A stretch of 11,656 bases of DNA from Deltaproteobacteria bacterium (GTDB taxonomy: Bacteria > Desulfobacterota > Binatia > UBA9968). Below the pieces are notes generated by a model. The model ran no database searches, was not told the origin of the DNA, and was given only the letters and a program-made list of their open reading frames with translations. Location of the stretch: assembly GCA_005878685.1 (NCBI GenBank), contig VBLN01000296.1, positions 1 to 11,656 of the forward strand, given 5' to 3'. Position numbers and translations under genes: made by a program. Below, in pieces: positions 3,921-8,230 of this stretch. Position 1 is the stretch's first letter. The number at the start of each line of letters is the position of its first letter.

Positions 3921-4139
3921 ATGGCCATGAAAAGGACCCAACTTTATCTCGATGGAGAGATGGCGAGGACCCTGGGGACGCTAGGCCGGTAGAAGGGCAA
4001 GACGGTCTCAGAGCTTGTGCGAGAGGGCGTAGAGGAAAAATACATGAGCAGGAAAGATCTCGATGGCGAATGCAACGAAAATTATCTTGACAACCCTCAC
4101 TTAACGCTACGCGAATCCAAGAAACCCGTAAGGAGGTGA
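3921..4139 (+). pseudogene. Ribbon-helix-helix (CopG-like) antitoxin relic with in-frame amber
   Basis: Reading from ATG 3921 (or 3927) gives MAMKRTQLYLDGEMARTLG, the hallmark beta-strand start of CopG/RHH antitoxins. After TAG at 3990-3992 the same frame continues KGKTVSELVREGVEEKYM, which is the usual second helix of this fold, and ends at TGA 4137-4139. Apart from that one stop the 72-residue frame is intact, so a single base change seems to have broken it (or this is a sequencing error or read-through case). No toxin gene (PIN, RelE, HicA) lies next to it: the next gene starts 4 bases later and its ribosome site overlaps the relic's 3' end. The other frame across 3842-4090 shows no family features and is taken as a shadow. 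Confidence 0.6.
4130..4137 (+). promoter_or_regulatory. strong Shine-Dalgarno of the 103-aa gene
   Basis: AAGGAGGT lies 5 bases before ATG 4143 and overlaps the last codons of the antitoxin relic. This suggests the two genes were once translationally coupled. Confidence 0.75.
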
Positions 4140-4472: not shown

Positions 4473-4776
4473 GTCTGGCTTGCATCGCTGAATGAAACGA
4501 GAGCTCCGACAGATTGCGAAGAGATTACTCTCGACATCTACTGGCTCGGAAACGAAAGCCTCGAAGAATCCGACAATCTTCCGGACCCCGATGTCCTTGC
4601 CCAGGAGATCGTCGTCCTTCGACTTGTTAAGCCTCGCTCAGGACGACCCCGAGCCAGGGCCAGAGCGATCCCCTGAAAGGCGTCGAGGGGTCGAAGATCT
4701 CGAAGCCGCCCTGGAACCATTCCGCGAAACCGCTAGCGATCTAAGCGCGAACAGTGATAAGAGTGGCGAGTTGTAG
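4467..4776 (+). pseudogene. hsdM (type I methyltransferase) C-terminal relic A, interrupted by palindromic element
   Basis: No start codon or upstream HsdM domains are present. The frame from 4524 reads ITLDIYWLGNESLEESDNL, continuing PDPDVLAQEIV to base 4613. After ~80 bases, frame +1 reads VEDLEAALEPFRETASDL to TAG 4774-4776. Joined, this is the C-terminal tail typical of type I N6-adenine methyltransferase subunits (LDI-WL--ESLE-S-NLPDPDVLA-EIVEDLEAALEQFR). The gap is the palindromic element at 4611-4692; removing 79 bases restores the frame exactly. An ATG at 4492 gives a chimeric 94-residue open frame through the element, which I do not believe is a native protein. No hsdS or hsdR is in the window. 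Confidence 0.65.
4611..4692. repeat. palindromic REP/MITE-like element, copy A
   Basis: The element consists of two hairpins. The first has an 8-bp outer stem GTCGTCCT (4611-4618) / AGGACGAC (4640-4647) with inner pairs CGA/TCG and CTT/AAG around loop gtt. The second has CCCCT (4670-4674) / AGGGG (4686-4690). The core CCTTCGAC ... GCTCAGG resembles intergenic palindromes seen in many environmental genomes (from memory). GTC occurs at both ends, compatible with a 3-bp target duplication. Copy B (6207-6289) differs by one C indel and one substitution. Confidence 0.7.
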
Positions 4777-4802
4777 AAGTCTGCTCCGGAATTTCCGCGA
4801 TA

Positions 4803-6107
4803 ATGAGTAAACATCTTTCAACAGCCGTCGTGGAGTTCATCAAAGTTTGGGGCCTAGTCACGTTGATCGTTGTTGCGGGGTTCGTAGTTGCCTACCAGTA
4901 TGTGGGTGCCCCGCCGCCCAAGGTCGTTCGAATCGCAACGGGAGCAAAGAACGGGGCTTACTATGTCTTCGCCCGACGATACGCGCGCCTGCTCGCGAAC
5001 GACGGCATTTCCCTTGAAGTTGTGTCGACCGCAGGCTCCGTGGAGAATTTTGACTTGCTCAAAAAGGGGGAAGTGTCATTGGCGCTTGTACAGGGAGGCA
5101 GCGCGACGGATGACGATAAGGAACGTTTCGAATCGCTTGGAAGCCTGTTTCTCGAGCCCGTTTGGATCTTTACTCGTAAACAGAAGCCCGTTAGACGATT
5201 TTCAGAATTGAAGGGAAAACGCGTGGCGGTCGGCGCTGCCGGAAGCGGCACTTATCTTCTGGCAATGCAGCTACTTTCCGCCGCCGGCATTACGGAATCC
5301 AATGCGACATTGATCCGGGGGGACGCGGCACAGGCTGTTACATCGCTGTCGCAAGATGAGATCGACGCCGCCTTTTTTGTCGCCTCTCCTGAGGCGCCGG
5401 TGATTCAGAGCCTTTTTCAAAAACCGACCATCGAACTCCTCGACTTCGACCGGGCACCTGCTTACGCTCGTTTGTTTCCTTTTCTAACTCTGGTGACGCT
5501 CAACGAAGGGATGATGAATCTAGAGTACAATGTTCCGTCCCACGACACCACACTCGTCAACCCGAGCCTGATTCCGGCGCTCCTGAACGCAATGACCAGA
5601 GTCCATCGGGCGGGAGGCGTGCTGGAGCAAAAGCGGCAGTTTCCGTCGGTCGACTTCGTCGACCTGCCTCTGAACGAAGATGCCCGGCGCTATATCACGA
5701 ACGGGCCGTCTTTTCTGTTCCGCTGGTTGCCCTACGGAACGGCCGTGCTCCTGGACCGTCTCAAAATACTGGTCCTACCTTTCTTGGCTTTGATCCCGTT
5801 GTTTAGAATTGGCCCGCCACTTTACAATTGGCGGGTTCGGTCGAAGATTTATCGCTGGTATGCGGCGGTTCGGGAAATCGACTCTATGGTCCGGAAAGAG
5901 ACGATTGCCGGAGATGCGGAATCCGCCATCGATCGATTGAAAGAGCTTGAGCGCGAGGTCGCTTCCGTTTCGGTTCCTCTGTCCCATACGGGGGAATTGT
6001 ACCACCTGCGCTTGCACATCCGCTTTCTGCAAGAAAAACTTGAAAAGCTTGCACGCGAATCGTCGCAAACGGGTACCCTACGGCGGCGCGGGTCATCTCC
6101 GGAGTAG
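4803..6107 (+). CDS. TAXI-family receptor with two membrane segments and cytoplasmic coiled coil
   Basis: A 434-residue protein. Residues 12-33 form an N-terminal membrane anchor. Residues 41-300 form a TAXI-type (TRAP transporter solute receptor) domain: RIATGAKNGAYYVFARRYA (43-61; TAXI proteins usually have ATG...G-YY), STAGSVENFDLLKKGEVSLA (75-94), a hinge with VAVGAAGSGTYL (141-152) and DEIDAAFFVASP (185-196). A second membrane segment follows at about 319-337, then ~95 residues with a basic start (NWRVRSKIYRWYAAVR) and heptad-like helices at 371-388 and 400-420. TRAP receptors of the usual kind are secreted or lipid-anchored and partnered with DctQM-like membrane subunits; none is encoded here. 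The topology (periplasmic sensor, cytoplasmic tail) suits an orphan receptor or signalling role, which is inference. Start ATG 4803 lacks a clear ribosome site. Repeats lie on both sides of the gene. Confidence 0.88.
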   Translation: MSKHLSTAVVEFIKVWGLVTLIVVAGFVVAYQYVGAPPPKVVRIATGAKNGAYYVFARRYARLLANDGISLEVVSTAGSVENFDLLKKGEVSLALVQGGSATDDDKERFESLGSLFLEPVWIFTRKQKPVRRFSELKGKRVAVGAAGSGTYLLAMQLLSAAGITESNATLIRGDAAQAVTSLSQDEIDAAFFVASPEAPVIQSLFQKPTIELLDFDRAPAYARLFPFLTLVTLNEGMMNLEYNVPSHDTTLVNPSLIPALLNAMTRVHRAGGVLEQKRQFPSVDFVDLPLNEDARRYITNGPSFLFRWLPYGTAVLLDRLKILVLPFLALIPLFRIGPPLYNWRVRSKIYRWYAAVREIDSMVRKETIAGDAESAIDRLKELEREVASVSVPLSHTGELYHLRLHIRFLQEKLEKLARESSQTGTLRRRGSSPE

Positions 6108-6118
6108 TAAGCGGTCAG

Positions 6119-6153
6119 ACTGAGAGTGCAAAAAGGCACTGGGAGTCTTTTCT
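6119..6153 (+). terminator. weak candidate terminator after the TAXI gene
   Basis: AGTGC-aaaaag-GCACT (6125-6129 / 6136-6140) with outer ACT/AGT pairs is followed by TCTTTTCT, starting 12 bases after the stop codon. The stem is short, so this is tentative. Confidence 0.3.
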
Positions 6154-6155
6154 AA

Positions 6156-6310
6156 GCCTTCCTCGAAGAATCCTCGCCCGCACCTGATGTTCTTGCTCAG
6201 GAAATCGTCGTCCTTCGACTTGTTAAGCCTCGCTCAGGACGACCCCGAGCCAGGGCCAGAGCGATCCCCCTGGAAGGCGTCGAGGGGTCAACGACCTCGA
6301 AGCCGCTCTC
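6156..6310 (+). pseudogene. hsdM C-terminal relic B, interrupted by the same element
   Basis: After an in-frame TAA (6153-6155) the sequence reads AFLEESSPAPDVLAQEIV up to 6209. Beyond the element (6210-6289) it resumes NDLEAALDTN and then loses similarity. It is a second, diverged version of the HsdM tail in relic A. It lacks two codons before PDV, and the four differences in the 24 bases left of the element all fall at third codon positions (CCC/CCT, GTC/GTT, GCC/GCT, GAG/GAA). Two distinct, once-selected hsdM genes or alleles are therefore the likeliest sources. It has no start and no upstream domains. Confidence 0.55.
6207..6289. repeat. palindromic REP/MITE-like element, copy B
   Basis: Same element as 4611-4692, in the same orientation and at the same codon of the HsdM-tail relic (after EIV). 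It has a run of five C instead of four and CTGGAAGG instead of CTGAAAGG; otherwise it is identical over about 80 bases. Confidence 0.7.
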
Positions 6311-6413
6311 GATACGAACCACAATATGTATACTGCCGCAATTTTTATTTTCTCTTCGCTCATATTTTGGGCAATGTGAGGCAGCGAATAGCCCCCATAG
6401 CAGCTTGACGGAT

Positions 6414-6962: not shown

Positions 6963-7493
6963 CTATTTTTTCATGCTCGCGCGAAATTTATTCCAAGCCG
7001 CGATGCCGGCCTCGGCAGCCTTTTCATCCACACCCTGGGGCAATCCGGCGACGCCCACGGCGCCCACCAACCGGTTAGCCACGGCCAGCGGCAGCCCGCC
7101 TCCAACGAGGTAAACTTCGCCGGGGTACATGCCCATGATGCCGAAGTAGCGGTCGGGGCGGGTCTTCGCGAGTTCCGCCGCTGTTTCCGTACGATCGCGC
7201 AAGACGAGCGAAGCGTAGGCTTTGCCTTTGGCGAAGCGTTCGAGGTGAAACGAAGCGCCTTCCATCCGATCTGCGGAAATGAGTTGCCCCTCCTCGTCGA
7301 GAACGACGACGGTCATGGTCAGTTTCTGTTCCCGCGCGTAGGCCACCGCCGTGTCGATGATGACGCGCGCCTCCTGAAGCGATAGCGCCGTCGGCGGCGC
7401 CAGCGGCCGCGGCGCTTCGGCGGCCGACACGGTGACGGCATGGGCAAGGTATCCGACTACCAGAGTCAGACAGAGCGCGGATAATGTTTTCAT
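6963..7493 (-). CDS. Periplasmic GlcG/HbpS-family heme-binding-like protein
   Basis: A 176-residue protein. Residues 1-25 form a signal peptide (MKTLSALCLTLVVGYLAHAV, then VSAAEA). The remainder is a full GlcG/HbpS (DUF336) domain: LSLQEARVIIDTAVAYA (37-53), the strand-turn VVVLDEEGQLISADRMEGA (62-80), FAKGKAYASL (87-96), the Gly-rich GGGLPLAV (131-138) and the closing GAVGVAGLPQGVDEKAAEAGIAA (144-166). Family members bind heme (HbpS of Streptomyces) or accompany glycolate and other oxidases; a periplasmic binding or redox-accessory role is plausible. The start is supported by AGGAGG (minus strand, 7500-7505) six bases before ATG 7493. No oxidase gene is adjacent, so the partner is unknown. 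Confidence 0.9.
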   Translation of the reverse strand: MKTLSALCLTLVVGYLAHAVTVSAAEAPRPLAPPTALSLQEARVIIDTAVAYAREQKLTMTVVVLDEEGQLISADRMEGASFHLERFAKGKAYASLVLRDRTETAAELAKTRPDRYFGIMGMYPGEVYLVGGGLPLAVANRLVGAVGVAGLPQGVDEKAAEAGIAAWNKFRASMKK

Positions 7494-7996: not shown

Positions 7997-8230
7997 ATGG
8001 CTAACTTGTATTACAACGATCGGCTTATTATCGCCTACGCGTCGATAAACCAAAGCACCAAACTCTGGAGTCCGGGAGCTGAAATCAGTTGGAAACGCGA
8101 CGGCCGGCGGCACTCGCACACCATCGGCGGGCTGTCGGATCGATTCAAAACTTCTGAGGAAGTAGAGAGGTTTGTCATAGGTCTCGCCAAAGCATGGATT
8201 GACGCTAACCCGCAACTCGGAGAGCCATAA
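7997..8230 (+). CDS. Conserved small hypothetical protein (77 aa)
   Basis: A 77-residue soluble protein: strand LYYNDRLIIAYASIN (4-18), strand AEISWKRDGRRHSHTIGG (28-45), then F50-x-T-x-EE and helix VERFVIGLAKAWIDAN (56-71). The pattern of two strands, F-x-T-x-EE-A/V-E and AK-WID is shared by a group of bacterial hypothetical proteins I recognise only by pattern. No catalytic residues stand out. It begins 69 bp after the mini zinc-ribbon gene in the same direction and may be co-transcribed with it. The start lacks a clear ribosome site; no alternative in-frame start fits better. Confidence 0.68.
   Translation: MANLYYNDRLIIAYASINQSTKLWSPGAEISWKRDGRRHSHTIGGLSDRFKTSEEVERFVIGLAKAWIDANPQLGEP

Follow-up and report, generated by a model that had tools for sequence, protein, structure and literature searches.

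In a deltaproteobacterial draft genome (G000, 80.6% complete), a TAXI-type transport gene is flanked by two relics of the 3' end of hsdM, each interrupted by an element of 82 or 83 bp. Similar hsdM tails, separated by other genes and lying in one orientation, form rows in relatives, and these rows are the more novel part of our observations. The element is MITE-like, that is short, dispersed, presumably non-autonomous and bounded by terminal inverted repeats, and the hsdM relics are one landing site for it among others. We propose, with about even confidence, that a MITE-like element entered an hsdM relic and spread from tail to tail within genomes, that the tails, most of which extend to the end of the gene and which are ragged on the 5' side, are left over from many different hsdM genes, and that the rows arose by homology-anchored joining.

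The window (the whole stretch of 11,656 nucleotides that was analysed) is part of contig C45. Counted with their flanking repeat letters, the two element copies span 4611-4692 and 6207-6289, 1.6 kb apart and in one orientation (Table 1). No Rfam match was found in the window, and viral contigs searched with one exact tail-element junction pattern gave no match. Labels of five Deltaproteobacteria draft-genome contigs give the habitats of the relatives as sediment, soil or groundwater. Just 5' of the first tail, positions 3922-4138 seem to hold a short ribbon-helix-helix antitoxin frame with an early stop. A 77-aa ORF at 7997-8227 has no Pfam match; its DNA is apparently repeated in four other loci (L068, L080, L082 and L086), and it perhaps represents a small dispersed gene family.

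Table 1. Positions of the hsdM relics, element copies and neighbouring features in the window.
Feature	Position	Strand	Evidence or remarks
hsdM 3'-end relic, left part, copy a, peptide DIYWLGNESLEESDNLPDPDVLAQEIV	4525..4613	+	nhmmer left profile E 5.7e-24; tblastn 93% to tail consensus
GTCG, left copy of possible 4-bp target duplication, overlapping last hsdM codon	4611..4614	+	
MITE-like element, copy a, 75 bp	4615..4689	+	terminal inverted repeats CCTTCGAC (4616-4623) and GTCGAGGG (4682-4689)
GTCG, right copy of possible target duplication	4690..4693	+	
hsdM 3'-end relic, right part, copy a, EDLEAALEPFRETASDLSAN	4693..4753	+	nhmmer right profile E 7.8e-12
TAXI-family TRAP solute-binding protein gene, 434 aa, between both tails	4803..6107	+	TIGR02122 103.6 bits, over cut-off; PF16868 1e-25
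Motif AAAAAGGCACTGGGAGTCTTTTC just 5' of tail copy b, resembling 5'-junction motifs of other tails	6130..6152	+	
hsdM 3'-end relic, left part, copy b, 5' truncated	6161..6209	+	nhmmer E 4.4e-05; tblastn
MITE-like element, copy b, 76 bp	6211..6286	+	flanks GTCG (6207-6210) and GTCA (6287-6290)
hsdM 3'-end relic, right part, copy b, 3' truncated	6291..6312	+	nhmmer right profile E 7.2e-04

The tail peptide aligns to the C-terminal region of a protein of 500 aa encoded in a family member (L075), and this full-length relative carries the domains on which HsdM membership rests, N6_Mtase (E 1.5e-70) and HsdM_N (2.1e-14). The recognition of HsdM in the first-pass annotation is thereby borne out, although the profile evidence comes from the relative: the window ORF at 4492-4773 matches no Pfam model at E 0.001, and the NCBIfam hsdM model TIGR00497 gave 85 of 243 bits, below its cut-off, so that the protein is a somewhat divergent methylase of the M-subunit type. 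In one relative (L071), the C-terminal part of HsdR (T1RH-like_C, E 1e-118) lies beside three tails.

The first-pass annotation had described near-identical elements at the same codon of two diverged hsdM-tail relics, and its positions and difference counts hold. In 82 aligned bases the two elements show a single substitution and a single indel, whereas the left 24 flanking bases differ at four positions, all of them third codon positions, and the right 24 at six (element versus 10 of 48 flanking bases, Fisher p = 0.0002). A third full copy lies inside another hsdM tail of the same genome (C354:1372-1452), so that all three full copies in G000 are inside tails, and a copy with an internal deletion lies in yet another tail (C354:3526-3613). 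The contrast between element and flanks recurs with the third copy (C45b/C354 p = 0.0023; C45a/C354 p = 0.039), the three G000 pairs sharing copies so that neither the contrasts nor the codon-position counts are independent. Within each pair, the nearest 27 bases on the left contain at most one difference away from a third codon position. Mismatches between tails of the same genome (15 pairs, 19 tails) number 52, 22 and 106 at codon positions one, two and three; this third-position excess indicates that the flanks diverged as coding sequence in working hsdM genes, and thus that the element is younger at these places. The earlier proposal of late separate entry or homogenisation at one site therefore stands, in that the element entered, or was copied into, hsdM sequences that had already diverged.

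Within G000 the flanks have diverged 4 to 17 times more than the element, whereas between genera the two are mostly equal. Two G003 tails carry an identical shortened element (0/37) between flanks that differ at 17 of 125 positions (p 0.013). No significant contrast was found in 16 of 18 between-genome pairs, and both exceptions involve G011, where the right flank is partly deleted and its first bases are gone. Since the contrast is mostly absent between genomes, a constantly slow element fails to explain it within them.

We listed 30 places with the element in 13 of the 25 family genomes; it is a multi-copy sequence without coding capacity, and full copies measure 68-78 bp. Eight places are in hsdM tails; inspection by eye of the 40-base flanks revealed no tail at the remaining 22. 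The suggestion that the element targets restriction-modification genes is therefore not supported, and specificity for restriction genes is rejected; close hsdM ends that are complete or nearly so are also empty. Thirteen of the 22 non-tail copies are nearly full length; such copies occur in seven family genomes, and partial ones in four more. Terminal inverted repeats CCYTCGAC/GTCGARGG (8 bp), or one-letter variants, were present in the 18 copies examined, a survey that sought these very ends in a set of 20 elements (copies under about 65 nt excluded) and set aside the two without a left end. The word 'palindromic' used in the first-pass annotation fits these ends clearly. Folded as single strands, however, both window copies do no better than their shuffles (z -0.5 and -0.8), nor does a non-tail G003 copy (z -0.7), and of the four copies folded only that of G014 beats them (z -3.0), its fold having two hairpins inside an outer stem. 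Relics of the start of hsdM (L068 upstream of hsdM, about 15520-15780, minus strand; L119:4560-4800) seem by eye to hold other palindromic inserts, one of which is followed by AAGGGTCGGGAGTGTTTC.

GTCG usually stands on both sides of the element, and the left and right 4-mers are equal in 12 of 18 copies (shuffle p 0.047). The GTC noted earlier at both ends is real, and may belong to a 4-bp target duplication of GTCG; the only matching repeats with other letters are ATCG/ATCG and GCCG/GCCG, each at one non-tail copy. In nine empty tails chosen from the 29 empty rows of the tail alignment, sense GTCG occurs exactly once in eight, which fits the fixed insertion codon, and filled tails usually have it twice. 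The reverse, CGAC, is present in all nine, yet full tail copies of the element all lie in one orientation. That these copies all point one way thus calls for more than the 4-mer, either an extended target (C-GTCG-A) or copying from one tail to another. The net length of the insert is a multiple of three in two of six complete tail copies (G011, with its deleted flank, set aside), so no in-frame preference is seen.

Among fragmentary close HsdM matches in the 25 family genomes (51 of 103 rows kept, with identity of at least 57% and length under 200 aa), 41 are C-terminal, six N-terminal and four elsewhere, an excess to be read as an upper impression since conservation of the tail aids detection. 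The C-terminal fragments come from 11 of the 25 genomes; they do not equal copies, as a tail split by the element counts twice and the 41 include at least two right halves that arose in this way. Their 5' limits are spread over residues 417-472, and 23 of 41 end within the last ten residues. The loci read, which were chosen because they hold matches, contain 65 tails, and at least five of these terminate hsdM genes that are complete or nearly so (L068, L075, L131, L132 and L133). Fourteen loci have two tails or more (39 tails), in the same orientation in all 14 and with other genes between, as in L068 (G011), L067 (G001), L071 (G003), L072 (G002) and L081 (G006). The spacing is 0.6-5.2 kb in 24 of 25 cases and 12 kb in one.

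The genes between tails are diverse: the TAXI gene in the window, NMT1-type and lactonase-like genes in L068, and Fic in L071. A REP-type transposase adjoins a tail in G003 (NF047646, 61.7 bits, below the 80-bit cut-off), and a PhdYefM/YafQ-like pair, below the Pfam cut-offs, adjoins another. The L068 row, with four clear tails downstream, is the only one that contains a near-complete hsdM (in two frames), which stands first. As a control, an HsdR C-terminal query gave six matches in the 25 genomes; these include two short 3' pieces and one match that a contig end interrupts, so that hsdR too leaves 3' remnants, though fewer than hsdM. The rows are known here from this family, a DNA match being present in 42 of 145 genomes when weaker ones outside the family are included. 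Searches of open-access literature on hsdM returned nothing resembling them at title level, and a literature search for the core letters of the element returned nothing relevant by title.

One genus carries genes between ribD and ribE, and G014 has two hsdM tails there. The corresponding gap of G007 (L114:5169-6947) has no tail; a repeat of about 60 bases from the start of ribE stands on both sides of an inserted block, which probably contains a DUF4143-like ATPase. This raises the possibility that gene-end duplication with insertion of a new gene extends beyond hsdM. The accessory pieces in the gap are in a different order in G019.

Immediately 5' of many tails are motifs such as AAAGGGGTCGGGAGTCTTTTC, GGGGACGCGAACATTTTC and GGGGTCGAGCGTGATATTTG. 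In 416 kb, 11 of 17 strict matches lie just 5' of a same-strand tail, with patterns that were written after the junctions had been viewed and so do not constitute an independent test. Y1_Tnp is found in all 25 family genomes, and sequences of the GGGTCAG kind precede most of 22 Y1 transposase genes inspected by eye. Among these genes, L169 (AGGGGTCAGGCGTGATATTTGC) most closely resembles the third motif; neither of the other two motifs was seen at any Y1 gene inspected. A second junction type, with a GTGATATTTGATATTT-like sequence immediately 5' of a shorter hsdM tail, occurs in G012, G005, G003 and partly G019 (L115:5386-5493 and 6994-7080; L118:425; L127:3908; L083:2450).

The tail alignment contains 11 element-bearing tails from six genera, all interrupted at the same codon. 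In a tree that omitted the element columns and took 40 of the 65 tails, chosen for having both halves or a sufficient number of letters, their union in one clade was rejected (AU p 0.0014); the tree includes one misplaced element (G011C294b), and in three short-form rows the first right-flank letters are element-derived. Element-bearing and empty tails are sisters in G003 (99/95) and G002 (100/92), and the aligned ends of close hsdM genes that are complete or almost complete (G019, G011 and G022) are empty. Empty tails, for which the first-pass annotation had proposed to look, exist within G000 itself (C95, C11 and C354:8745).

The elements in tails also resemble one another. GT[A/G]GACC occurs in four of seven tail elements versus none of 13 non-tail elements, and GTGGCC-type letters in none versus 11. 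All three G003 tail elements have CTCAG[C/T]CTCG, which is absent from the three non-tail elements of that genome that cover this part. Tails that do not form one clade, carrying elements with common letters, point to spread from tail to tail. The tree of the elements themselves neither rejects a single clade of tail elements (AU p 0.38) nor the pairing of tail and non-tail elements of the same genome (G003 p 0.16; G014 p 0.26), and with four changes needed by its best topology it is too short to decide.

According to the proposed model, the element (68-78 bp) would have entered one hsdM 3'-end relic at sense GTCG, between the codons EI-V^E-D, and would then have spread in each genome among tails that had already diverged within different working hsdM genes. 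Recombination between dispersed tails may have carried the insertion along through gene conversion, or the element may have transposed repeatedly into one and the same target, C-GTCG-A. Conversion would explain the right-truncated copies that lack one inverted repeat; target-preferring transposition would account for old coding differences that are still found 3-6 bases from the element ends. In G000 such differences persist 4 bases to the left and 3-6 bases to the right, closer than the usual length of a conversion tract, which favours transposition. Recurrent insertion and conversion had both been offered in the first-pass annotation; either fits and these data do not fully separate them, and we lean slightly towards recombination or conversion. 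The rows would result from accessory genes added side by side, each addition leaving an hsdM tail in the same orientation, through joining that is anchored by homology at one end and illegitimate at the other. Tentatively, the hsdM 3' end may be a recurrent joining point, at which each added accessory gene (for transport, Fic or a probable toxin-antitoxin pair) leaves the stump of a different hsdM in one orientation, so that rows would record serial turnover of restriction-modification genes and homologous stumps would exchange insertions, the MITE spreading at the same base.

Recurrent transposition alone, with a C-GTCG-A-preferring MITE landing independently in neutral relic tails that each offer one such site and exchange nothing, is possible but doubtful. 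The coding differences next to the element, the single sense GTCG of most empty tails, the ATCG and GCCG repeats and the dispersed nearly full-length copies all agree with it. It accounts less readily for letters of tail elements that are absent from non-tail copies, even within G003, or for the right-truncated form, without one inverted repeat, that two G003 tails share in identical letters between diverged flanks (a deletion at the GACC repeat could, however, have happened twice); nor does it readily yield full tail copies that point one way when CGAC sites are available in every tail checked. That the element inserted once, long ago, into an ancestral hsdM tail, was inherited from there and evolves more slowly than its flanks is improbable: the common codon in six genera and the GT[A/G]GACC letters would suit it, but the element-bearing tails are not a single clade, the lower divergence of the element that is seen within G000 mostly disappears between genera, against a constant slow rate, the flank differences fall mostly on third codon positions, which is a coding pattern, and close hsdM ends are without the element.

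Integron cassette rows, in which the tail or the element would be an attC-like recombination site, are very unlikely. The rows do consist of genes with a repeated one-way site, and integron integrases (TIGR02249) exceed the cut-off in nine of 25 family genomes versus none of 14 controls (e.g., G004:C49, G005:C137, G008:C303 and G013:C484; several have stops or are cut). However, a strict scan for RYYYAAC/GTTRRRY pairs, run without a positive control, found no attC-like pair in 14 tail-bearing or rib loci and one candidate (L183) in 14 integrase loci, 13 integrase loci hold neither the element nor a tail better than E 1.3, and the 5' limits of the tails are ragged. The genes that precede an intI fragment of G000 (C414) have, by eye, an ordinary appearance. 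That one interrupted relic was simply duplicated as a segment within the window, as two same-orientation copies 1.6 kb apart might suggest, is hardly credible; the first-pass annotation had argued against it, and it is rejected by the uneven divergence of element and flanks (p 0.0002) and by the limits of the two tails, which differ at the 5' as well as the 3' end.

Gene tails that act as punctuation between accessory genes would give a readable record of defence-gene turnover and a natural test of whether short homologous relics steer where new genes join the chromosome. Because the flanks keep older coding differences almost to the ends of the element, the element also provides a clean case in which to separate target-specific transposition from conversion.

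Several known systems share features with the one described here. Some integrative elements use the 3' ends of genes, such as icd, as attachment site, and L068 likewise has a near-complete gene first, 3' remnants downstream and other genes between. However, the 5' limits of the remnants reveal no single crossover point, and no integrase was found among the annotated genes of tail loci, in which part of the genes are annotated. REP and BIME sequences are palindromic repeats associated with RAYT (Y1) transposases; the element is likewise a palindromic repeat in Y1-bearing genomes, and the sequence to the left of one Y1 gene is similar to a tail-junction motif. The co-occurrence with Y1 is at genome level, and the matching end repeats look like a target duplication, which IS200/IS605-type elements are not known to produce. 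Rickettsia palindromic elements (RPE) are inserted inside protein-coding sequence, as is this element, which lies here in relics and without preference for frame; in-frame insertion in functional genes of the RPE kind was not seen, the close hsdM ends of G019, G011 and G022 being empty. Bacterial MITEs are short and dispersed, have terminal inverted repeats and no ORF, and duplicate their target. The element is like them in its shortness, lack of an ORF, inverted repeats, dispersal and possible target duplication, and differs in that no parent transposase is assigned to it and that eight of its 30 places are one site in the relics of one gene.
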